Shown here in pieces: positions 30,824 to 42,621 of a stretch of 64,000 bases of DNA. The stretch's first letter is position 1. Each line of letters begins with the position of its first letter. Where the stretch lies: positions 62,001 to 126,000 of the forward strand of contig NZ_JAFKFW010000007.1 of NCBI RefSeq assembly GCF_017308015.1. The letters are read 5' to 3'. This stretch comes from Allobosea sp. GTDB taxonomy: Bacteria; Pseudomonadota; Alphaproteobacteria; Rhizobiales; Beijerinckiaceae. The position numbers and the translations under genes were made by a program. A model generated the notes under the pieces. That model was not told the DNA's origin. It made no database searches and was given only the letters and a program-made list of their open reading frames with translations.

Positions 30824-31801
30824 TCACTTCTTCTCCGACTTCGGCGGCGGGTTCGGATCGGTCGAGAAGCGCCGGAACACCATGTCGGGCGAAGAGGTGT
30901 TGTGGCGCGAATGCGTCGTGCGCCCCATCCAGATATCGGTCGCCTTGCCGCCGGGGTATGACATCAGCGCCTCCTCGCGCCAGCCCTTGGCGCCGGGCTC
31001 GCGCAGGGCGATGCGGGCGACGTCGTTGTTGAACTCGGTGACATACATCGAGCGCAGTGCCAGGAAGCCCTTGCCGCCGGTCACCGGCTGGTCGAGCACG
31101 GCATCGAGCACCATCCGGTTCTCATCGACGCTGTCGAGTTTCAGGCTGCCGGAGGAGCCGTCCTTGAAGTTCAGCTTGAAGGTCAGCGTCTTCGGCTCGA
31201 ATTCGATCTCCCTGATGTTCACGACCGGGCGCCCCTCCTGCTCGATCGGCCCGAACAGGAAGGAGGAACCGTAGGAAGAGAAACCGAGATGCTCCGGCGG
31301 CAGCGGCCGGGCACGCCAGTTGCCGTCCTGCGGATAGACGACGAGCACCTCATGTGACTTGTCCTTGCCGAGCTTCCAGAGCTGGACGAGATGCAGGTTC
31401 TTCTCGACGCGGTCGCCGACACGGAAGGTCGCCTCGGCCGGGCGCCAGAAGCTCGGGAAGGTGTAGCCGACCAGCCAGTAGTCGATCGATTCGTAGAAGG
31501 TGACGCGGCGCGGCGGCGAAGGCGGCGTGAAGGACGGATCACCCTTCATGTCGCAATTGGTCCAGTCGGCGTCCCAGTTGTCGCGCACGAGCCCGGCGAC
31601 ATAGGCCGGATGCGCGGCCTCGATCTGGAAGCGCCGCACCTCGGGCGAAACCACCTTGATCGTCACGTTGTCCTTCTCGGCGCAGAGCACCGGCTCGGAT
31701 TCGTTCTTCACCTCGACGGCAACCTCGCCTGCCGCCCGCGCAACCGTCAGCGAGGCGAGAAGAGCGAGTGAAACCGCGAGAGGGCGAAGAAAGCGGGTCA
31801 T
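30824..31801 (-). CDS. Exported protein of unknown function
   Basis: This 325-residue protein begins MTRFLRPLAVSLALLASLTV with a clear signal peptide ending near ARA (residue 23). The mature part is rich in aromatic and charged residues and has no membrane helix. Cysteines near VLCAEKD and WTNCDMKGD may form a disulfide. It is lone, between hyi and the mdoH region, on the same strand. I do not recognise the family. A part in periplasmic glucan or envelope metabolism is possible from its position only. Confidence 0.75.
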   Translation of the reverse strand: MTRFLRPLAVSLALLASLTVARAAGEVAVEVKNESEPVLCAEKDNVTIKVVSPEVRRFQIEAAHPAYVAGLVRDNWDADWTNCDMKGDPSFTPPSPPRRVTFYESIDYWLVGYTFPSFWRPAEATFRVGDRVEKNLHLVQLWKLGKDKSHEVLVVYPQDGNWRARPLPPEHLGFSSYGSSFLFGPIEQEGRPVVNIREIEFEPKTLTFKLNFKDGSSGSLKLDSVDENRMVLDAVLDQPVTGGKGFLALRSMYVTEFNNDVARIALREPGAKGWREEALMSYPGGKATDIWMGRTTHSRHNTSSPDMVFRRFSTDPNPPPKSEKK

Positions 31802-32189: not shown

Positions 32190-32190
32190 T
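31958..32190 (+). pseudogene. Probable remnant of a small membrane protein gene
   Basis: A plus-strand frame from ATG 31958 (or 31970) reads LLLGAGQMTALTALVHSVVG, then GERLIFRQLRSSGIVPTEE. The segment resembles, from memory, the start of a small membrane protein family (VHSxxGExRIxxPLxRxG). Its later half does not continue as a clean helix and the frame runs on across the antisense FkbM gene, as expected after truncation or frameshift. A functional short protein is not excluded. Confidence 0.3.
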
Positions 32191-32948
32191 CAGGCCGTCA
32201 GAATGGCGTAGACATCGCCCGAATTGGCCTCATGCGGCAGGCTGCGCAGATAGTCGCCCATCGCCTCGGCACTCGCTGGCTCGCCGAGTTCGAGCCTCTG
32301 GCTCTCGCCGATCGCGACATTGAAGCGATAGGGGCCGAGCGTCTCGAGCAGGGCAAGGCAGGCTTCGGCAACCTCGCGCTGGATCGTCGTGAACTCGAAG
32401 GAGATCACCGGCACCGCCCTCGTCAGGCCGGCCAGCACATGCGCCTCGAAGCCCTCGACATCGATCTTGAGCAGCTTCGGCAATCCGAAGCGCAGGATCA
32501 GGCGGTCGAGCGTGGTACAGGGTACCGCAATCTCGTGATCCCAGATTTGCCCTTCCCAGCCATCGGCCCCGGCGGCTGCGCCGATGAAGGCGGCCGAAGC
32601 CGTCGAGACCGTGGGATTCTCGCTGTTGATCCTGAGTGCGATCGTGCCTTCGTGGTCGCCGCAAGCGGCCTCGACCAGCGTCACCAGCGGGTCGCGCCGA
32701 TGGATAAGGCGGATGGCGCGGGCCGGACCGGGCTGCGGCTCGAGCGCAACCACCCGCGCACCCAGCCGGCGGAAGGATGAAATCCGGTCGCCCACATGGG
32801 CGCCGATATCGAAGGCGAGATCTCCGGGCGCCAGGAACTCCCCATAGAGCCGATCCATCGCCGCATGACGCTCCTTGTCGCCGTAATAAATGCGCAGCGA
32901 GCGCGACAGCGCCTTCACCGTTCCCTTGGGATAGGCGACGGCGTTCAT
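32190..32948 (-). CDS. FkbM family methyltransferase
   Basis: This 252-residue S-adenosylmethionine-dependent O-methyltransferase has motif I AFDIGAHVGDRISSF, the acidic LEPQPGPARAI after the second strand, and LLKIDVEGFEAHVLAG, the FkbM signature. The ATG at 32948 overlaps the mdoH stop by four bases (ATGA), so it is translationally coupled to the glucan synthase. FkbM enzymes methylate sugar hydroxyls in glycans and antibiotics. I infer that it decorates the periplasmic glucan or a related sugar. Confidence 0.87.
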   Translation of the reverse strand: MNAVAYPKGTVKALSRSLRIYYGDKERHAAMDRLYGEFLAPGDLAFDIGAHVGDRISSFRRLGARVVALEPQPGPARAIRLIHRRDPLVTLVEAACGDHEGTIALRINSENPTVSTASAAFIGAAAGADGWEGQIWDHEIAVPCTTLDRLILRFGLPKLLKIDVEGFEAHVLAGLTRAVPVISFEFTTIQREVAEACLALLETLGPYRFNVAIGESQRLELGEPASAEAMGDYLRSLPHEANSGDVYAILTA

Positions 32949-34774
32949 GCCGCCTCCGCATCGCGGATGGCGGCAAGCACCGGCGGCAGGTCGAAATCCT
33001 CGGGGATGCCGCAGAGCCCGCGCCGCGCCAACCAGGCCCCGCAGCCCGGCGCCGCCGTCAGCATGGCGAAAGGGATCGCCAGCACATAGCCGGCAGTCAA
33101 TGGCAGCGACCAGACCAGAACCACCGGCGCCACCATGCCCAGCGCGGCGAAGAGATAGACCCCGAACAGCAGATGCGGCCACAAGCCCGCGAAAGCCGTC
33201 GCGAAGGACAGGGCATGAGCGTCGCGCGCCTGCCCGTTCCAGCCGATCTTCGCCCGCCCGCAGGCGAGCCCGATCATGAACAGCGTCGTGCGAAAACTTG
33301 AAATCGCGCCCTGCAGGAAGGCAAAGGCGAGTTCGACCGCCGCCGAGACTAGAAACCGCGCCTTGCCGCCATAACGCTCGGCCCCGCCTCGCGTCAGCAG
33401 GATATCGGCAAAGCCTGCGAGCTTGGGCGAGAGATACATCCCGAGGAACAGGAGATAGAGCCCGAGGGCAAGCGCAGCCGGATAATCGGCAATCGCCCGA
33501 TCCTCGAAGGCCTTCAGCGGCAGGAGCGCGATCATCAGCGTCCAGGCCGGCAGGCCGAGGAACATCAGGATCGCCCATACGAGCTGGAAGCGGCTCATCG
33601 GTTTGAGGCCGGGCAGGTCGACCAGCTTGAGATATTGCAGATTTCCAAGGCACCAGCGCAGGTCGCGCTTGGCGAATTCCAGCATGGTCGGCGGGTTCTC
33701 TTCCCAGCTTCCGCCCTCGACCGGCAGCACGCGCACCTCGAAGCCTGCCCGGCGCATCAAGGTCGCCTCGACCTGGTCGTGGCTCATCACCGCTCCGCCC
33801 AGAGGCGGCCCGCCCGGCAGCACCGGCAGATGGCAGTGATCACGGAACGGCGCGATCCGCACCAGCGCGTTATGTCCCCAGAACGGCCCACAATCACCGC
33901 TCCACCAGGCCGAACCCATGGTGTAGGGCCGCATGCCGTGGCGCATGCCGAACTGGAAGATGCGGGCGAAGGCCGAACGGCTGGGCATGCCGACCACCAG
34001 ACTTTGCAGGATTCCGAGCTTCGGATGCGCCTGCATCATTCGGGCCATGCCGAGGATCGTCTCGCCCGCCATCACACTGTCGGCATCGAGCGGCAGCATC
34101 AATTCATAGCGCTCGCCCCAGCGTTCGCAGAAATCGCGGAGATTGCCGGCCTTGAACCCGGCATTGTCGCTGCGGCGGCGGTAGATCAACCGCGCCGGAT
34201 CGCCGACCTCGCCCGCCCAGGCTTCGGCCAGTTCCTCCTCGGCTGCTGCGATGGCGGGATCGTTGGTATCGGAGAGAACGAAATAATCGAACCAGCCCCC
34301 CTCTCCGGCCGCATCGAGACTGTCCTTGACGACCTTGAGCCTGCGGAAGGCGCGCGCCGGGTCCTCGTTGCGCAACGTCATCAGGACGGCGATACGCAGG
34401 GCCAGCGGCCTCGCCTGCTCGCTGGCAGCGACGAAGGGCACGACCTCGGCCAGCCCATCCGCCTTGCCATGCAGCAGCCAGAGCCCGATCGCGGCGTTCC
34501 AGAAGCCGAGCACGGTCCAGGGCGCCCCGAACATGAAAGCAACGAAGATCGCGATATCCGCGACGCTCCAGCCACCCGCGCCGAGCACGTGCGCCAGCCC
34601 GGCGAGCAGCAGCGCCAGTGTTCCGAGATTCAGGAAGAGGACGAGGAACCGCCGGCGGCGCAGCACCGTTTCCGCCTGCAGTCCGGCCGGCGTGAGCCCG
34701 CCCGGCCCGGCCTCTTGCGCCGTCCGCCGGAACGTGGTCGGAGCGGAACGCTGGTTCATGGCGGTCTCTGTCAT
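32945..34774 (-). CDS. mdoH: Osmoregulated periplasmic glucan glucosyltransferase MdoH
   Basis: This 609-residue inner-membrane GT2 enzyme builds the beta-1,2 glucan backbone from UDP-glucose. The cytosolic GT domain has MTLRNEDP, LSDTNDP, LPLDADSVM (DxD), and the QxxRW-type motif as KRDLRWCLGN. About eight membrane helices are split before (residues about 45-105) and after (about 400-570) it. The usual partner mdoG is not next to it; the FkbM methyltransferase is. Starts at 34774 and 34759 are both possible. Most rhizobia make cyclic glucans by NdvB or Chv, so the MdoH type is worth noting. Confidence 0.93.
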   Translation of the reverse strand: MTETAMNQRSAPTTFRRTAQEAGPGGLTPAGLQAETVLRRRRFLVLFLNLGTLALLLAGLAHVLGAGGWSVADIAIFVAFMFGAPWTVLGFWNAAIGLWLLHGKADGLAEVVPFVAASEQARPLALRIAVLMTLRNEDPARAFRRLKVVKDSLDAAGEGGWFDYFVLSDTNDPAIAAAEEELAEAWAGEVGDPARLIYRRRSDNAGFKAGNLRDFCERWGERYELMLPLDADSVMAGETILGMARMMQAHPKLGILQSLVVGMPSRSAFARIFQFGMRHGMRPYTMGSAWWSGDCGPFWGHNALVRIAPFRDHCHLPVLPGGPPLGGAVMSHDQVEATLMRRAGFEVRVLPVEGGSWEENPPTMLEFAKRDLRWCLGNLQYLKLVDLPGLKPMSRFQLVWAILMFLGLPAWTLMIALLPLKAFEDRAIADYPAALALGLYLLFLGMYLSPKLAGFADILLTRGGAERYGGKARFLVSAAVELAFAFLQGAISSFRTTLFMIGLACGRAKIGWNGQARDAHALSFATAFAGLWPHLLFGVYLFAALGMVAPVVLVWSLPLTAGYVLAIPFAMLTAAPGCGAWLARRGLCGIPEDFDLPPVLAAIRDAEAA

Positions 34775-34813: not shown

Positions 34814-35833
34814 ATGGCGCGGGAGCTAAAGCCTGCAACAGTGATTGACGCAAGGGCCAAGGCTCTTGCGCTTTGGTATATAGCGCCTCGTGAATGCAAC
34901 CTGAACGAAGCTATCCTGCCTGCCCTGCAGCCGGACGACTGCCTGCTGACGACGCTCTGGAGCGGCGTCAGCCGCGGCACCGAGCGGCTGGTCTGCGAGG
35001 GCCGCGTGCCTGGCTCCGAATACAAGCGGATGAGGGCACCGTTTCAGGAGGGCGACTTCCCGTTTCCCGTCAAATACGGCTATTGCGCCGTCGGCCGCAT
35101 CGACACTGGTCCGCCGGACCTGCGCGGCCGCATCGCCTTCTGCCTGCACCCGCATCAGGACCGTTTCGTCGCGCCGCGCGGCAGCCTCGTTCTCGTGCCC
35201 GATGCGGTGCCGCCCCGGCGCGCCATCCTCGCCGCCAATCTGGAGACGGCGCTGAACGCCCATTGGGATGCCGGTTCCGGCCCCGCTGACAAGATCGTGA
35301 TCGTGGGTGGTGGTGTTCTCGGCCTGCTCGTCGCCTGGCTGGCCGCTCGCTTGCCGGGCGCCGAGGTCACACTCGTCGACATCGAGCCCGGCAGGGCTAA
35401 GCTCGCCGCCATGCTGGGCTTTCGCTTCGCGCTGCCCGATGCTGTGCCACACGACGCCGACATTGTCTTTCATGCCAGCGCGACGGCAGCGGGTCTCGAA
35501 ACCGCCATCGCGGCCGCGGGCACCGAGGCGCGCATCGTCGAGCTGAGCTGGTATGGCGAAGGCGCGGTTCCCGCCGCGCTCGGCGGCGCCTTCCATGCGC
35601 GCCGTCTGCAGCTCATTTCCTCGCAGGTCGGCCTGGTCTCGGCCTCGCGGCGCGCCCGTTGGAACTATGCCCGCCGGGCTCAGGCTGCCATAGCCCTGCT
35701 TGCCGACGACCGGCTCGATGCGTTGATTACCGGGGAGGTCGCCTTCAAGGACCTGCCGCGGCGTCTGCCCGGCTTGTTGGTGCCGGGTGCCGCTGGCCTG
35801 ACGGCCGCGATTTGCTATGAAACGCAGCCCTGA
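34814..35833 (+). CDS. MDR (medium-chain) dehydrogenase-like protein, zinc ligands not evident
   Basis: This 339-residue protein has a GroES-like N-terminal half with SGVSRGTERLVCEGRVPGSE and FPVKYGYCAVG, then a Rossmann half with GGGVLGLLVAWLAARL and LVDIEPGR. The catalytic zinc Cys-His-Cys set of alcohol dehydrogenases is not visible. The pattern is closer to BchC- and sugar-dehydrogenase-like oxidoreductases. It is the first gene of a plus-strand operon with a pterin-synthase-like gene 36 bases on. I infer a reductase step in the same pathway. Substrate unknown. Confidence 0.85.
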   Translation: MARELKPATVIDARAKALALWYIAPRECNLNEAILPALQPDDCLLTTLWSGVSRGTERLVCEGRVPGSEYKRMRAPFQEGDFPFPVKYGYCAVGRIDTGPPDLRGRIAFCLHPHQDRFVAPRGSLVLVPDAVPPRRAILAANLETALNAHWDAGSGPADKIVIVGGGVLGLLVAWLAARLPGAEVTLVDIEPGRAKLAAMLGFRFALPDAVPHDADIVFHASATAAGLETAIAAAGTEARIVELSWYGEGAVPAALGGAFHARRLQLISSQVGLVSASRRARWNYARRAQAAIALLADDRLDALITGEVAFKDLPRRLPGLLVPGAAGLTAAICYETQP

Positions 35834-35869
35834 CCCGGCTGCATCGCCAGCCCACCCTTGGGAGATCGC

Positions 35870-36271
35870 ATGTTTTCCGTCGAAGTCCGCGACCGCATCA
35901 TGATCGGACATTCCCTGCCCGATCCCTTCTTCGGTCCGGCGCAGAACATGCACGGCGCCACTTTCGTCGTGGACGTCGCCTTCTTCCGCGAGGCGCTGAA
36001 CAGGCAGAACGTCGTCGTCGATATCGGCGCGGCGCTCGAGACCCTCGCCGAGACCCTGAAGCCGTTGAAATACCAGAATCTCGACGCGCTCCCGCAATTC
36101 GCAGGCGTGTTGACCACCACCGAATTCCTCTGCAAGCACATCTTCGATGCCATGGCGGTTGCGGCGAAATCCGGCGCGCTCGGAGCGGATGGCACGAGCC
36201 TCGCCCGCATCCGCGTAACCCTTCACGAGACCGATCTCGCCCGCGCCAGCTACGAGGGTGCGCTTGCGTGA
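35870..36271 (+). CDS. 6-pyruvoyl-tetrahydropterin synthase-like protein with degenerate active site
   Basis: This 133-residue protein has the PTPS/QueD T-fold, but most catalytic residues are altered. Zinc histidines H14 and H28 remain. The third zinc histidine of HGH is A30 (MHGAT). The catalytic cysteine four residues before HGH is A24. The DH pair of the LDHxxLN motif is K67-Y68. The pterin-anchoring glutamate E120 in TLHET is kept. It should therefore still bind a pterin- or purine-like ring but cannot use standard PTPS or QueD chemistry. GGGAG at 35860-35864 supports the start. Its stop overlaps the glycosyltransferase GTG by two bases. Confidence 0.88.
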   Translation: MFSVEVRDRIMIGHSLPDPFFGPAQNMHGATFVVDVAFFREALNRQNVVVDIGAALETLAETLKPLKYQNLDALPQFAGVLTTTEFLCKHIFDAMAVAAKSGALGADGTSLARIRVTLHETDLARASYEGALA

Positions 36272-37332
36272 GCGGCATCTGCTTCGCCATCCCCGGCGAC
36301 ATCGATGCGCCGACCGGCGGCTACGGCTATGATCGGCGGCTCCTGCGCGAATGGCGCGAAGCCGGCATAGAGGCCAGCCATCTCGCCCTGCCCGGCTCGT
36401 TTCCTTTTCCGACGGGAACCGACCTTGCGACGACCGAGCGTCTACTCGCCGCAACGCCCCCCGGTCACGCCCTGCTCATCGACGGCCTCGCCTTTGGCGC
36501 CTTTCCGGAGGCTCTTGCGGTGCGGCTCGGCGACCGGCTGATCGCGCTGGTCCATCATCCGCTAGCGCTGGAAACGGGGCACAGCCCCGGGACGGCAGAG
36601 GCGCTGCGGCGCAGCGAAGCCCGGGCGCTGCGTCATGTGCGCGCTGTCGCGGTGACCAGCACCGCGACACAGCTCATCCTGGAAGCCGAGTTCAGCGTCC
36701 CTGCCGACAAGATTGCTGTCGCGATACCCGGCACCGACCCGGCGCCCCGTGCAAAAGGCTCCACCCACGGCAAAACGGCGCACCTGCTCGCGGTCGGCTC
36801 GCTCATTCCCCGCAAAGGCTACAGCGTTCTCGTCGAGGCGCTGGCGAGGATCGCGGACCGCCGCTGGACACTGACCATCGTCGGCTCGCCCGATTACGCG
36901 CCGACTACCGCAGCGGAGCTGCGCGCGGGGATCGCGCGCGCCGGGCTTTCCGAACGCATCGCGCTGACGGGAGCCGCGGGCACCGAAGCGCTCGCCCAAC
37001 TCTATGACGAAGCGGATCTTTTCGTGATGTCGTCGCTCTATGAAGGCTACGGCATGGTGCTGACCGAGGCCCTGGCACGCGGCCTGCCGATCGTCACCAC
37101 GTTGAGTGGTGCCGGCGCCGAGGCCCTGCCCGATGGCGCTGCCCTCAAGGTGCCGCCCGGCGATGTCGCGGCACTTGCCAAGGCGCTTTCGAGGCTGATT
37201 GATGCGCCGGCAGAGCGTCGGCAGCGTGCCGATGCCGCGTGGGCTGCAGCCGGCCATCTGCCGCTCTGGAGCGAGACCGCGCGCATCGTCGCTGAGGTTT
37301 GCCTGCGCGGCGACAGCCGAAAGGTGGAATAA
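36268..37332 (+). CDS. GT4 family glycosyltransferase
   Basis: This 354-residue GT-B fold enzyme has VGSLIPRKGY at the start of the C-terminal half and the donor-binding SSLYEGYGMVLTEALARGLP (E-x7-E). It would transfer a sugar from an NDP- or UDP-sugar. The start is a GTG at 36268 overlapping the PTPS-like stop, and its TAA shares a base with the methyltransferase ATG (TAATG). The acceptor is unknown. In this operon a pterin-like or pyrimidine-like product is the natural suggestion, but a lipid or carbohydrate acceptor cannot be excluded. Confidence 0.9.
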   Translation: MSGICFAIPGDIDAPTGGYGYDRRLLREWREAGIEASHLALPGSFPFPTGTDLATTERLLAATPPGHALLIDGLAFGAFPEALAVRLGDRLIALVHHPLALETGHSPGTAEALRRSEARALRHVRAVAVTSTATQLILEAEFSVPADKIAVAIPGTDPAPRAKGSTHGKTAHLLAVGSLIPRKGYSVLVEALARIADRRWTLTIVGSPDYAPTTAAELRAGIARAGLSERIALTGAAGTEALAQLYDEADLFVMSSLYEGYGMVLTEALARGLPIVTTLSGAGAEALPDGAALKVPPGDVAALAKALSRLIDAPAERRQRADAAWAAAGHLPLWSETARIVAEVCLRGDSRKVE

Positions 37333-38171
37333 TGGCTGGTTTCTCTCCGGAATGGCTCGCCTTGCGCGAGCCGGCGGATCATGCGGCGCGCAATCCGCAG
37401 GTTCTCGCGGCGGTCGGCGGCCATTTCGCCGACAAGGCTTCGCTCTCGGTGCTCGACCTGGGTTGCGGCGCCGGCTCGAACCTGCGCGCTGCCTACGCCA
37501 TCCTGCCGGACCGCCAGCACTGGACGCTCGTCGATCATGACGCCGCGCTTCTCGGCTTCGCCCGCGAACGCCTGACGCACTGGGCAGACGAGGCCCGTGA
37601 ACAGGGCGAAGAGCTCGTTCTCGCCAAGGACGGCAAGACCATCACCGTCGATACGCGCAAGATCGACCTGAACACCGATCTCGAATGGGTTCTGGGCTGG
37701 CAGCCGGATCTCGTCACGGCCGCTGCACTGTTCGATCTCGCCTCGAAGCGCTGGATCGAGCGCTTCGTCGCGGCACTGGCGGCCCAGCACCTGCCGCTCT
37801 ACACCGTGCTGACCCATGACGGCCGCGAATCCTGGCTGCCTGAGCATCTGGCCGATGCCGGCATCCATGCCGCCTTCACCGATCACCAGCACCGCGACAA
37901 GGGTTTTGGCCCCGCCACCGGCCCCGATGCCTGCAAGGTCATGGCGGAAGCCTTCCGCAAGTCGGGTTTCGCTGTTTCGAGCGGCGACAGCGACTGGCTC
38001 CTCGACGCCACGCGGCGCCCTTTGCAGGAAGCCTTGGCCGAAGGCATCGCCGCAGCCGTCGGCGAGACCGGCCGTCTCGATCCAAAGGCCATCGCGGATT
38101 GGCTCGCGGCACGCCGCGAAGCCGAGTCCGCCATGATCGGCCATCAGGACCTCTGGGCCCGGCCGATTTGA
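37332..38171 (+). CDS. Class I SAM-dependent methyltransferase
   Basis: This 279-residue protein has motif I LDLGCGAGSNLRA and an acidic residue in LVDHDAALL, both typical of class I methyltransferases. A post-core region VLTHDGRESWL follows. It is the fourth gene of the overlapped operon. Target atom and substrate are unknown. By context it acts on the same intermediate as the glycosyltransferase. Confidence 0.88.
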   Translation: MAGFSPEWLALREPADHAARNPQVLAAVGGHFADKASLSVLDLGCGAGSNLRAAYAILPDRQHWTLVDHDAALLGFARERLTHWADEAREQGEELVLAKDGKTITVDTRKIDLNTDLEWVLGWQPDLVTAAALFDLASKRWIERFVAALAAQHLPLYTVLTHDGRESWLPEHLADAGIHAAFTDHQHRDKGFGPATGPDACKVMAEAFRKSGFAVSSGDSDWLLDATRRPLQEALAEGIAAAVGETGRLDPKAIADWLAARREAESAMIGHQDLWARPI

Positions 38172-38278
38172 GCATTCGCTCCAGAATCAGGCGCTCAGCC
38201 CGAAGAGCGCTCCACAGAAGCGTGTCTCGAAGGAAGCTCCCGAACCTTCTGGAACATCCTTCGAGGCGCAGGTTGCGC

Positions 38279-38842
38279 CTACTTCGCCCAAGGCAGCATG
38301 CGCCGCATCACTCCATCCCTGAGGATCAGGCGGTGGTGAAGCGCGGCACCGATATGCATCAACGCCAGCGCTCCGGTCGCCAGAGCGAGCTTGCCGTGAA
38401 TGCCGAGCACGCGCTTGGCCATCTCCTCGTCGGGCTTCGTCAATGCCGGCAGATCGAACAGATCGAAGATCGTCAGCGCCGGAAAGAGCGAAACCCCGAT
38501 CCAGCCGAGCAACGGCACGACGATCAGCAGGCCGTAAAGCAGCCAATGCACCAGATGCGAAGCGGCCTTCTGCCACCAGGCCAGTGTCGGCTCGTCCTGT
38601 GGTACCCCGTGCAGCAGGCGATAGGCGAGCCGGCCGGCCATCAGCCAGAGCAGCAGGAAGCCGGTGAGCCTGTGCGCGCTGTAGAGCCCGTTCGTCAGCT
38701 CGTCCCAGATATTCAGGACATTGCCGCGATAGCTCATGGCAAGTCCGACCGGGATCATCACGAGCACCGCGGCCACTGTCACCCAGTGCAGCGCGCGGGC
38801 AGTCGGGCTGTAGACATGGGTTGCCGGCATCTCGCCTTGCAT
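38279..38842 (-). CDS. Cytochrome b561
   Basis: This 187-residue membrane protein has four helices with histidines placed as in the Ni,Fe-hydrogenase/cytochrome b561 family: RALHWVT, SAHRLTGF, VHWLLYG and GIHGKLALA ... LMHIGAALHHR. It would shuttle electrons between quinone and a periplasmic partner. It is antisense to and convergent with the methyltransferase gene, in the 900-base gap between that operon and the ribA-like gene, so its link to the pathway is unclear. Confidence 0.92.
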   Translation of the reverse strand: MQGEMPATHVYSPTARALHWVTVAAVLVMIPVGLAMSYRGNVLNIWDELTNGLYSAHRLTGFLLLWLMAGRLAYRLLHGVPQDEPTLAWWQKAASHLVHWLLYGLLIVVPLLGWIGVSLFPALTIFDLFDLPALTKPDEEMAKRVLGIHGKLALATGALALMHIGAALHHRLILRDGVMRRMLPWAK

Positions 38843-39098
38843 CGGAAAGCCTCCTGATCTGCTGCCGGGACGATATTCATCTCACGTTCAAGCGCGAGCG
38901 CCCATAGGATCGCGATACGCTGCGAAGGTTCCCGTTTTCGCCTGCCGACAGATGCCATCTGACGTTGTTTTGATCGTGGAACCCGCGCCGCGCCGGCCAC
39001 GTTGCTGGCAGAGCGCAATGCAAGGCCCTATATCGATACCCGATGGTGCCCTGGATGCCCCCTCGGCCGGTCGCCGGCCCAATCTGACGGACTTTTCG

Positions 39099-40226
39099 AT
39101 GCCTGAGTCGCGTACGCTCTTTGGCCCATCCCTCCAGACGGATCTCGTGAAGGTCGAACGTGCGATTGCCGAGTTTCGCGCCGGCCGCCCGGTCCTGCTC
39201 CGCGATGGCGAGCTGCTGGCACTCGCTCTCTCCGCCGAACTCGCCGACACCGAACTCGCCCGCCGCTTCGACATGCTGGCTCAGGGGCGCGGACATCTCG
39301 TGCTGAGCGCCGCGCGCCTGCGCCGTCTCGGTGCCAGGGGGCGTCTGGAGACCGGCATTTTCGCGTTGCCCACCATTGATACCGTTCGCATCGAGACCCT
39401 TGCCCTCAAGAGCGACGGCCGCATGGATGCTCCCGTCGCCCCGGCTTCTGCCCTTGATGAAGCCGCGCTGGAACTCGCCCGCCTGTCTCTGGTGCTGCCG
39501 GCTGTGATCCTCGTCCCGGTGAGTGCCGAAGCGGTCGCGAACGAACCCCTCGTCGACGTCGGGATCGACGCCGTGAACGGCTATCGCACCGAGCAGGCGG
39601 CAACACTGAAGATCGTCGGCCGCGCGCCCGTGCCGCTCGAAGGCGCGCCCGACACCGAATTCGTCGTCTTCCGCGGTGGCGAGGGCCTGCGCGATCAGGT
39701 CGCGATCATCGTCGGCAAGCCCGATCTGTCGGCTGCCGTGGCGGTGCGCCTGCACTCGGCCTGCCTGACCGGCGATCTTTTCGGCTCGCTGAAATGCGAT
39801 TGCGGCGACCAGTTGCGCGAGACCGTGCAGTGGATGGCCGAGAACGAGGGCGGCATCCTGCTCTATCTCGACCAGGAAGGCCGCGGCAACGGCATCTCCA
39901 ACAAGATGCGTGCATACAGGCTGCAAAGCCAGGGCTGGGACACCTATGACGCTGACGAGGTCCTTGGCTTCGATCTCGACCAGCGTCATTTCGACTTCGC
40001 TGCGACCATGCTGAAGCAGCTCGGCGTTTCCAGCGTCGTAGCCCTGACCAACAACCCGCAGAAGATCGGCGCGATCGAGGCGGCCGGGCTCGAGGTCGCG
40101 GCGACGCAGCGCGTTCTCGGACGTCCGAACGCGCATAATGTCCGCTATCTCGCTTCCAAGCGCGATCGTGCCGGCCATTTCATCGACATGGACGCGCTGA
40201 TGGCGCGCGCCGCCCCGACGGATTGA
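39099..40226 (+). CDS. ribA: GTP cyclohydrolase II with degenerate RibB-like N-terminal domain
   Basis: GTP cyclohydrolase II opens the imidazole ring of GTP and releases formate and pyrophosphate, normally as the first step of riboflavin synthesis. The C-terminal half shows the zinc cysteines C222, C233 and C235 (CLTGDLFGSLKCDC), DQEGRGNG and LTNNPQK. The N-terminal half aligns with 3,4-dihydroxy-2-butanone-4-phosphate synthase but reads VLLRDGELLALALSAE where DDxxRENEGD is expected, so that activity is very probably lost. The ATG at 39099 is preferred; in-frame ATGs exist back to 38952. It may feed the pterin-like pathway upstream or plain riboflavin synthesis. Confidence 0.9.
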   Translation: MPESRTLFGPSLQTDLVKVERAIAEFRAGRPVLLRDGELLALALSAELADTELARRFDMLAQGRGHLVLSAARLRRLGARGRLETGIFALPTIDTVRIETLALKSDGRMDAPVAPASALDEAALELARLSLVLPAVILVPVSAEAVANEPLVDVGIDAVNGYRTEQAATLKIVGRAPVPLEGAPDTEFVVFRGGEGLRDQVAIIVGKPDLSAAVAVRLHSACLTGDLFGSLKCDCGDQLRETVQWMAENEGGILLYLDQEGRGNGISNKMRAYRLQSQGWDTYDADEVLGFDLDQRHFDFAATMLKQLGVSSVVALTNNPQKIGAIEAAGLEVAATQRVLGRPNAHNVRYLASKRDRAGHFIDMDALMARAAPTD

Positions 40227-40257: not shown

Positions 40258-42621
40258 ATGCCCGCGCCCGAACACACTGTTCCCGACAGTCCCGCACGCT
40301 GGCCGCTCGCCAGCGTCTGCGCGATCGTGTTCATCGCCTGGCTCGCCTTGTCCTGGCCCTGGCTCTCCGGCACGCTCACGATCCCCTGGGATGCCAAGGC
40401 GCATTTTCATCCCCAGCTCCAGTTCCTCGCGGATGCCTGGCACAAGGGCCTCTCGCCCTTCTGGACGCCCTATGTCTTCTCGGGATCGCCGCAGGTCGCG
40501 GACCCGCAATCCCTGATCTTCTCGCCCTCCTTCGCCCTGATTGCCGCGCTGAACCCGACTCCCGACTTCCGCTGGAGCGACGGTGCCCTGCTCGGCACGC
40601 TGCTGCTCGGCGCTCTGTCGATCGTCCTGATCTTCCGAGATCGCGGCTGGCATCCGGCCGGTGCGGTGATCGCCGCTCTTTCCTTCGCCTTCGGCGCGGC
40701 AGCGGCCTGGCGCATCCAGCATGTCGGGCAGGTGCTGAGCCTCGGCTATTTCGCGATCACGCTTGTCCTGCTGTCGCGAGCGCTGGAGCGCGGCTCCATC
40801 GCCTATGGTTTCGCCGCCGGTATTGTTTCCGGCTTCATGGTGCTGGGGCGCGATCAGGTCGCCCTGCTCGGCGTCTATGTCCTTGCCGGGCTCACCATCG
40901 CCGCGATCCTGATGGCGCAGAGCCCGTGGCGCGCCTTCCGCGCGAGCCTCCCGCCACTCATCGCCGGCACGTTGGGCGCCATCCTCGTCGCGACGATCCC
41001 GATCCTTTTGACCGCCTTCATCGCACAGGAATCGAACCGCCCCGCCATCGATTTCGTCGAGGCCGGCAAGGGCTCGCTCCACCCGGCAGCTCTGCTGACC
41101 GGGCTCTTCGCCAATCTCTACGGCGCCGCCGGCCCGCTCGCCGATTTCTGGGGCGCGCCGAGCCCCGCCTGGGAAGCGCGCTTCGGCCCCTTAAGCCTCT
41201 TCCTCGCCCGCAACATGAGCCAGCTCTATCTCGGCCTGCTGCCGATGGGCCTGATCCTGACCATCGGCCTCGTCCGTGGCGCGCTCTGGCGGCGCGAGAT
41301 CGTCCCGCTCACGGTCGCGGCGATCACCGTCCTGCTCTTCGCGCTCGGCCGCTACACACCGGCCTTCCGCGTGCTGTTCGAGCTCCCCGGCGTCAGCTTC
41401 TACCGCCGCCCGGCCGATGCGCTCTTCATCCTCGGTGCCCTGCTCGCGCTGCTCGGCGGCTACCTCACCCATCTCGTCATGACCGGCACCGCTCCCAAGG
41501 CGCGGCCCTGGCAGATCGCCCTCGAAGCCCTGATCTTCGCGGCCGCGCTCGCTCTCGCGCTCTGGCTCGCTTGGGCGGTGGGCCGCGTTCCTGTCGCGAC
41601 GATGCCGCTCGTCATCGCGGCGCTGTGCGGCGTGCTGTCGCTGGGCGGCCTCGTTGCCGCACGCGGGCTCGCAAGGCGCGGCTCCCTCCTGGCCGCAGCC
41701 GTCGTGCTCGCTGCGACGCTGACAATGGATCTCTCGGTCAATAATGGCCCGAGCGAATCCACCGCCCTGCCGGCGCAAACCTATGACGTGCTGCGCAAGG
41801 ACAGCAGCAACGACACCATCGCCCTGCTCAAGCGCGAAACTGCCCGCACCATGGCGCCCGATCGAAGGGACCGCATCGAACTCGCCGCCATCGGCTTCCA
41901 CTGGCCGAACGCCAGCCTCGTCCACGATCTCGACAACACGCTGGGCTACAACCCGCTGCGCCTCGGCCTCTACACAAAGGCGACCGGCGCCGGAGACCAT
42001 GTCGCGCTGCCGGACCAACGCACCTTTTCCCCGCTGATGCCGGGTTACCGCTCCCTGCTCGCCGATATGCTCGGCCTGCGCTTCATCGCCACCGGCGTGC
42101 CCGTCGAACAGATCGACAAGCGTCTGAAACCCGGCGACCTCCGGCAGATCGCCCGCACCAGGGACGCCTTCGTCTACGAGAACCCGCGCGCCCTCCCGCG
42201 CGTGCTGCTGGTGACCGACGCCCGGAAGGCGGATTTCGACTCCATCCTGAAGACCGGCGAATGGCCTGATGATTTCGACCCGCGCCGCACCGTGCTGCTC
42301 GACCGCGATCCCCCGCCGTTGCCGACCGGCCCTCTTGGGCCGGACAGCGTCGCGATCCGCGATTACGGCACCACGACCGTGACGCTCGCTGCCGAGACGG
42401 CGCGCGGCGGCTATCTCGTGCTCAACGATGTCTGGCACCACTGGTGGCAGGTCGAGATCGACGGCCAGCCCGCCGAATTGCTGCGCGCCAACGTCCTGTT
42501 CCGGGCCGTCATCGTGCCGCCCGGAAAATCGACGGTGCGCTTCGTCTTCCGCCCGCTGCAGGGCCTCTGGCGTGATATCGCCGCGCATCTGCACAAGAAT
42601 GCGGCAACGCAGCCCGGATAG
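40258..42621 (+). CDS. YfhO-like integral membrane protein
   Basis: This 787-residue protein has about twelve helices, an early periplasmic loop with IPWDAKAHFHPQLQF and VFSGSPQVADPQ, and a soluble C-terminal domain ending GGYLVLNDVWHHWWQVEIDG and VIVPPGKSTVRFVF. This is the YfhO layout, a GT-C-like family linked to glycosylation of teichoic acid or other glycans. The acidic D and Q residues in the first loop fit a GT-C active site, but no activity is proven. It starts 31 bases after the ribA-like stop, so co-transcription is possible. Confidence 0.85.
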   Translation: MPAPEHTVPDSPARWPLASVCAIVFIAWLALSWPWLSGTLTIPWDAKAHFHPQLQFLADAWHKGLSPFWTPYVFSGSPQVADPQSLIFSPSFALIAALNPTPDFRWSDGALLGTLLLGALSIVLIFRDRGWHPAGAVIAALSFAFGAAAAWRIQHVGQVLSLGYFAITLVLLSRALERGSIAYGFAAGIVSGFMVLGRDQVALLGVYVLAGLTIAAILMAQSPWRAFRASLPPLIAGTLGAILVATIPILLTAFIAQESNRPAIDFVEAGKGSLHPAALLTGLFANLYGAAGPLADFWGAPSPAWEARFGPLSLFLARNMSQLYLGLLPMGLILTIGLVRGALWRREIVPLTVAAITVLLFALGRYTPAFRVLFELPGVSFYRRPADALFILGALLALLGGYLTHLVMTGTAPKARPWQIALEALIFAAALALALWLAWAVGRVPVATMPLVIAALCGVLSLGGLVAARGLARRGSLLAAAVVLAATLTMDLSVNNGPSESTALPAQTYDVLRKDSSNDTIALLKRETARTMAPDRRDRIELAAIGFHWPNASLVHDLDNTLGYNPLRLGLYTKATGAGDHVALPDQRTFSPLMPGYRSLLADMLGLRFIATGVPVEQIDKRLKPGDLRQIARTRDAFVYENPRALPRVLLVTDARKADFDSILKTGEWPDDFDPRRTVLLDRDPPPLPTGPLGPDSVAIRDYGTTTVTLAAETARGGYLVLNDVWHHWWQVEIDGQPAELLRANVLFRAVIVPPGKSTVRFVFRPLQGLWRDIAAHLHKNAATQPG

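Follow-up and report, generated by a model that had tools for sequence, protein, structure and literature searches.

The four-gene operon and its protein families

The window analysed here is a 64,000-nucleotide stretch of an Allobosea sp. genome (contig NZ_JAFKFW010000007.1, positions 62,001 to 126,000), and our subject is a run of four genes on its forward strand, which encode an MDR dehydrogenase (34814–35833), a PTPS-fold protein of the SCO6650 type (35870–36271), a GT4 glycosyltransferase (36268–37332) and an S-adenosylmethionine (SAM) methyltransferase (37332–38171). The GTG start of the GT4 gene overlaps the TGA stop of the PTPS gene by 4 bases, and the GT4 and methyltransferase genes overlap in a TAATG motif; an earlier reading of this DNA (the original prediction) had described four overlapping or nearly touching genes in just these terms, and the operon is real. 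Two of the proteins score above their Pfam cut-offs (PTPS, PF01242, 71.2 bits with a cut-off of 22.4; GT4, PF13692, 106 bits), and the MDR and methyltransferase show Pfam matches below cut-off only. When five genes of the locus were compared with three Bosea loci, third codon positions held more differences than the other two in every case, indicating that the five are real genes. Long open reading frames (ORFs) also run opposite to the operon, such as 34826–36454 on the minus strand, and were regarded as shadows of the forward genes, which are conserved.

The original prediction let a GTP cyclohydrolase II (GCH2) gene follow in the same locus. Such a gene does lie at 39099–40226 on the forward strand and matches PF00925 (160 bits) and NF006456 (499 bits, cut-off 464); however, it is not part of the run, because a cytochrome b561 gene on the minus strand (38279–38842) stands between it and the methyltransferase gene, which rules out a single five-gene operon that includes GCH2.

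Aligning 89 PTPS sequences, the window's included, and mapping positions through an alignment with 1b66, we found His14, Gly22, His28, Ala30, Tyr68 and Glu120 to be invariant in 89/89. With residue roles that we take from rat PTPS, two zinc-binding histidines (His14 and His28) are kept and the third is replaced by Ala30, Gly22 and Tyr68 occupy the positions of the catalytic Cys and His, and the Glu that anchors the pterin is retained as Glu120. Judged from this alignment, the family has lost one zinc ligand together with the catalytic Cys and His, and has kept the pterin anchor. The residue pattern argues against the label 6-carboxytetrahydropterin synthase, which is carried by all eight of the annotated plasmid relatives that we inspected. 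A role as QueD in queuosine synthesis is ruled out by the altered residues and by a QueD equivalog score of 30.2 bits, under the cut-off of 89.25. The closest solved relative, SCO6650 of Streptomyces coelicolor (PDB 3d7j; 55% identity over 132 residues), carries the same replacements, and is reported to lack zinc and the catalytic triad and to be able to bind a pterin-like ligand. In two divergent loci (L174 and L175, at about 8–12 kb), RibD_C, MDR and GT4 genes surround a PTPS gene that still encodes the third zinc His, so the loss of this residue may be secondary; these loci are possibly an older form of the cluster.

The MDR protein appears to be without the usual catalytic zinc ligands. 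In 78/78 sequences Ser53 and Tyr90 stand where the catalytic zinc Cys and His are expected, positions that we assume from the motif, and the protein therefore does not look like a zinc-dependent alcohol dehydrogenase. In three loci (L169, L170 and L176) GT4 and methyltransferase form a single open frame; all three come from Pseudomonadota that do not share the window's class, L170 and L176 are congeneric, and L169, as extended by L177, also has RibD_C, GCH2, creatininase, FkbM, MdoG and sulfatase-like genes. When the methyltransferase, MDR and sulfatase-like sequences were searched against the PDB, none had an informative relative there.

For GCH2, the zinc ligands Cys222, Cys233 and Cys235 and the active-site Tyr273 are present in 35/35 long sequences of the window type, and a Tyr occupies that site in the window protein and 37 other GCH2 matches (one locus, L094, has Leu); in family model and in predicted zinc and active-site residues, the window protein is a GTP cyclohydrolase II. 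The same genome holds three further PF00925 genes: a RibBA (L125:5563–6843, contig G000:C7), whose GCH2 half, as read from its translation, lacks the three zinc Cys; a second GCH2 on another contig (L124:9645–10781, G000:C8), 82% identical to the window's; and a fourth PF00925 gene. The paralog at L124 lies near a short-chain dehydrogenase gene and a photolyase-related (DPRP) gene.

Co-occurrence and gene neighbourhoods

The original prediction had proposed to survey genomes for conserved co-occurrence of these families. We took an even sample of 249 Hyphomicrobiales genomes. The PTPS family had a match in 69 of them, of which 68, spanning 35 genera, were kept as positive and 181 genomes were counted as negative; one match (G074; E 7.5e-4, 31% over 62 amino acids) and a second weak match in G137 were not counted. 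At a threshold of E 1e-40, the MDR was found in 68/68 PTPS-positive genomes, always within 10 kb of PTPS, versus 1/181 PTPS-negative ones (G111), in which mdoH and a fragment of the MDR lie side by side without PTPS (C12:182848–185236), possibly as remnants of a degraded cluster. The methyltransferase was present in 62/68 versus 3/181 and window-type GCH2 in 33/68 versus 6/181, confirming a co-occurrence far above chance; related genomes are not independent, and the Fisher p-values of this survey therefore overstate the case. Two families absent from the operon itself behaved similarly, namely MdoH (57/68 versus 4/181) and cluster-type RibD_C (50/68 versus 1/181, taking 190 bits as the lower limit for the cluster type). 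RibD_C lay no more than 10 kb from PTPS in 32 of the 50 genomes and GCH2 in 17 of the 33, and RibD_C and GCH2 lay at most 3 kb apart in all 24 genomes having both. Pairwise correlations between the distance matrices of six proteins ranged from r 0.63 to 0.80, values reached by 0 of 1000 permutations.

Gene maps were drawn for 88 related loci, of which 80 come from named genomes (the best of at least 586 such loci) and 8 from a set of 20 plasmid records; the 80 named loci lean to Alphaproteobacteria and several are truncated at contig ends. The window's nearest named relatives among the best 80 are Bosea or Boseaceae records (L036–L041), with PTPS proteins 86–94% identical. Across the 88 loci, MDR occurs in 78, GT4 (surveyed in the mapped loci only) in 78 and the methyltransferase in 83; all four core genes are present in 68, and the 20 loci without the full core include several contig ends, six full-length loci with GT4 below threshold, and two Streptomyces plasmid loci (L116 and L123) where PTPS stands alone in a different setting. 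The other families are less constant: MdoH in 52, RibD_C in 51, b561 in 42, GCH2 in 38, FkbM in 31, CDP-alcohol transferase in 16, and flippase-like and sulfatase-like genes in 11 each, with RibD_C or GCH2 in 59. We used 52 for MdoH and set aside the 66 loci given by clustering, since its seed ORF was extended, and dropped one CDP-alcohol match (L059, 34.6 bits).

In six loci, from Streptomyces fungicidicus and five more genomes of 8–10 Mb, a Streptomyces-type block holds genes for a CDP-alcohol transferase, MDR, PTPS, GT4, methyltransferase, a flippase-like protein, a creatininase-family protein and GCH2. Past GCH2, between 15.5 and 18.8 kb of L163, there was no ORF common to at least four of the other five loci. 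In 6/6 of these loci GCH2 has Met in place of the Tyr and is paired with the creatininase-family protein (PF02633, 218 bits, a score that places it in the superfamily); this Met marks the SCO6655-type GCH2, from which the Tyr-keeping window protein differs. Outside these blocks, a Tyr-type GCH2 accompanies creatininase in one mapped locus (L169), and creatininase occurs without a nearby GCH2 in L065 and L173. The cluster-type RibD_C protein is reductase-only, PF01872 (126 bits) being the sole Pfam match in the two members analysed, without a deaminase domain; its best solved relative, 6p8c, is named 2,5-diamino-6-ribosylamino-4(3H)-pyrimidinone 5'-phosphate reductase. A cluster-type RibD_C in the window's own genome is ruled out (no match at E 1e-20), although two other RibD_C genes exist there.

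Upstream of the operon, and absent from the original prediction, an MdoH/OpgH-type glucan synthase gene (32945–34774, minus strand) diverges from the MDR gene, 39 bases from its start, and is among the most conserved neighbours of the cluster; the gap measured 40–366 bases in 58 genomes. MdoH as a coincidence of one clade is ruled out, since it adjoins MDR in an Azospirillum locus and in two from Alcaligenaceae as well. Going further from MDR, an FkbM-family methyltransferase gene (32190–32948, minus) follows, whose start overlaps the mdoH stop in our reading of the gene list, and then a gene whose product looks exported and has no Pfam match (30824–31801), conserved on the mdoH/FkbM side in 25/88 loci. 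On the other side, GCH2 is followed by a gene for a YfhO/PMT-like membrane protein (40258–42621) common to 14/88 loci. MdoG was found in 4/103 related loci. Among the annotated neighbours in eight plasmid loci there was no WD-40 or sulphatase-modifying factor gene, in a gene table that is incomplete and with no model run elsewhere.

A proposed GTP-derived pathway and its alternatives

We favour a reading in which the cluster is a conserved pathway that starts from GTP with its ring opened and ends in a pterin-like compound bearing a sugar and a methyl group, and put its probability at about 0.55. GCH2 would make 2,5-diamino-6-ribosylaminopyrimidinone phosphate from GTP. In the Streptomyces-type loci the Met-bearing enzyme, which we presume to stop at the formyl intermediate as SCO6655-type GCH2 is reported to do, would hand this intermediate to the creatininase-family protein for removal of the formyl group, as archaeal ArfB does. 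Where RibD_C is present, it could then reduce the ribosyl side chain and keep the 2-amino group, as would fit binding by the T-fold Glu. The PTPS-fold protein, with its changed zinc site, would hold the 2-amino-4-oxo ring through the invariant Glu and, together with MDR, may reshape or oxidise or reduce the side chain, after which GT4 would add a sugar and the methyltransferase, fused to it in some bacteria, a methyl group. The RibD_C reductase and the pairing of Met-type GCH2 with creatininase in relatives strengthen the GTP-derived, pterin-like reading. Gene content, linkage, conservation, residue patterns and the fusions are observed; the reactions, their order and the product are deduced from them.

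The product may be exported, or joined to a lipid or glucan, and here the proposed pathway is at its weakest. It might pass to the envelope with the OpgH-type glucan synthase, or a CDP-alcohol phosphatidyltransferase could make a new phospholipid whose head group is moved by the flippase-like protein and the sulfatase-fold transferase; in loci that have MdoH in their place, the carrier may be glucan. E. coli OpgB and OpgE, which transfer phospholipid head groups to periplasmic glucan (PMC3818809), would be the model by analogy. The stronger proposal, that the product is attached to membrane lipid or periplasmic glucan and that the PTPS-fold protein is an enzyme of new activity without the canonical catalytic site, we regard as doubtful; if true, the attached product would be the first envelope component of pterin type.

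Several observations weigh against the pterin-like pathway. Window-type GCH2 was below threshold in 35/68 PTPS-positive genomes, 18/68 lack cluster-type RibD_C, the window's own genome among them, and the RibD_C proteins score below the cut-offs of their NCBIfam models. The window itself gave no match to the models we built for RibD_C, CDP-alcohol transferase, flippase-like, sulfatase-like, creatininase and MdoG proteins. Creatininase scores 37 bits against an ArfB cut-off of 180 and does better as MftE (141 against 172), so that its role as an ArfB-like deformylase stays tentative. Six full-length loci (L065, L074, L089, L090, L105 and L112) have MDR, PTPS and methyltransferase with GT4 below threshold. 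The envelope partners vary, MdoH and CDP-alcohol transferase occurring together in 1 and both being missing from 21 of the 88 loci, and the distance correlations partly reflect species relationship. Moreover, the window GCH2 may be the riboflavin enzyme: as the RibBA lacks the zinc Cys of its GCH2 half, riboflavin synthesis probably depends on the window GCH2, on its 82% identical paralog or on the fourth PF00925 gene. The original prediction had named a loss of riboflavin alone in knockouts as one outcome that would speak against it, and a riboflavin role of the window GCH2 or its paralog comes close to that. Its proposal, a GTP-derived pterin or ring-opened purine with a sugar and a methyl group added, is compatible with the data, but took GCH2 as one with the operon and overlooked the envelope genes.

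Such a riboflavin role would favour two independent units, a four-gene operon with its own chemistry adjoined by descent to a housekeeping riboflavin GCH2, and the opposite-strand b561 gene between them and the finding of GCH2 within 10 kb of PTPS in only 17 of the 33 genomes having both point the same way. This arrangement is nonetheless rather unlikely, given the enrichment of window-type GCH2 in PTPS-positive genomes and the second paralog, which could serve riboflavin in its place. Another alternative dispenses with the pterin altogether: the PTPS-fold protein and MDR would have been co-opted to act on a sugar or lipid in an envelope glycan or glycolipid pathway worked by MdoH, GT4, FkbM and the CDP-alcohol transferase, flippase-like and sulfatase-like proteins, with GCH2 and RibD_C as chance riboflavin neighbours. 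It draws on the frequency of MdoH in PTPS-positive genomes and its place beside MDR, the envelope genes in many other loci, the lost catalytic residues of PTPS, and the absence or distance of GCH2 in many genomes. We nevertheless consider it unlikely, since the pterin-anchoring Glu is kept throughout the family, the distribution of cluster RibD_C is too specific for riboflavin, and the Streptomyces-type blocks end exactly at the modified GCH2.

Finally, the product could be a soluble, glycosylated and methylated metabolite or cofactor of the toxoflavin or azapteridine kind, without envelope attachment and with the membrane genes acting only in export. GCH2, a RibD relative and a methyltransferase form the early set in toxoflavin and pseudoiodinine synthesis (PMC9911603), and the envelope genes differ by lineage around a constant core, which plasmids carry in several cases. 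Export does not usually involve CDP-alcohol transferases, MdoH or flippase-like genes, and the families examined include no conserved pump devoted to efflux; this alternative appears improbable, the most so of those considered here.

Relation to known systems and wider spread

The cluster probably makes a heterocycle from the product of GTP cyclohydrolase II, and its PTPS–MDR–GT4–methyltransferase core is not described in the literature searched. In that literature, which leaves out most subscription journals, we found a description neither of the cluster itself nor of the SCO6650 genes as a conserved pathway, SCO6650 being one protein only. Cyanobacterial pterin glycosides, whose sugar-bearing pterin matches the chemistry proposed here, start from GTP cyclohydrolase I and canonical PTPS, unlike the GCH2 and the PTPS without catalytic residues found here. 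The periplasmic glucan genes (opgG, opgH, opgB and opgE) resemble the cluster in that MdoH stands beside many copies and a sulfatase-fold protein occurs in some loci; however, opgG is mostly absent, the window lacks the pairing of opgG with opgH that marks an osmoregulated periplasmic glucan operon, and none of the four core genes belongs to a known step of glucan synthesis.

The toxoflavin and pseudoiodinine clusters also combine GCH2, a RibD relative and methyltransferases to make a modified heterocycle from GTP. Pseudoiodinine synthesis involves genes for GCH2, RibD and methyltransferases according to PMC9911603, which proposes the analogy with toxoflavin and reports that deleting the RibD gene only reduced production; PTPS, MDR and GT4 are not among the pseudoiodinine genes listed there, and the RibD relative of the present cluster differs in being reductase-only. 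In PMC2853524, SCO6655 is listed among genes with expression against predicted flux, which speaks weakly, since another GCH2, SCO2687, is in the same list.

Two orphan proteins of Streptomyces, one a PTPS homolog whose structure is solved and the other a variant GCH2, are thereby connected with a single conserved operon found in Alpha-, Beta- and Gammaproteobacteria as well. The proposed pathway can be put to the test as to the heterocycle it yields, the possible attachment of that heterocycle to lipid or glucan, and the role of a PTPS that has lost its catalytic residues. Beta- and Gammaproteobacteria among the named loci include Alcaligenaceae (L109, L114), Thiodictyon (L118), Pseudohaliea (L092) and a Xanthomonas-labelled record (L086). 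The PTPS family was found in 19/299 Pseudomonadota genomes and in 16/198 genomes from the phylum of a record labelled Aquiluna, where eight of the 16 matches score only 62–71 bits and nine have gene maps; two of those eight were examined and have the other zinc-site form. That this second phylum is Actinomycetota rests on the Aquiluna label, and the Aquiluna contig resembles alphaproteobacterial loci and may be misbinned. Plasmids also carry the cluster, with a match in 20 plasmid records, and two lone PTPS-like genes on Streptomyces plasmids (L116:12001–12426 and L123:12001–12399) have MEKHLA-domain and cupin genes nearby.

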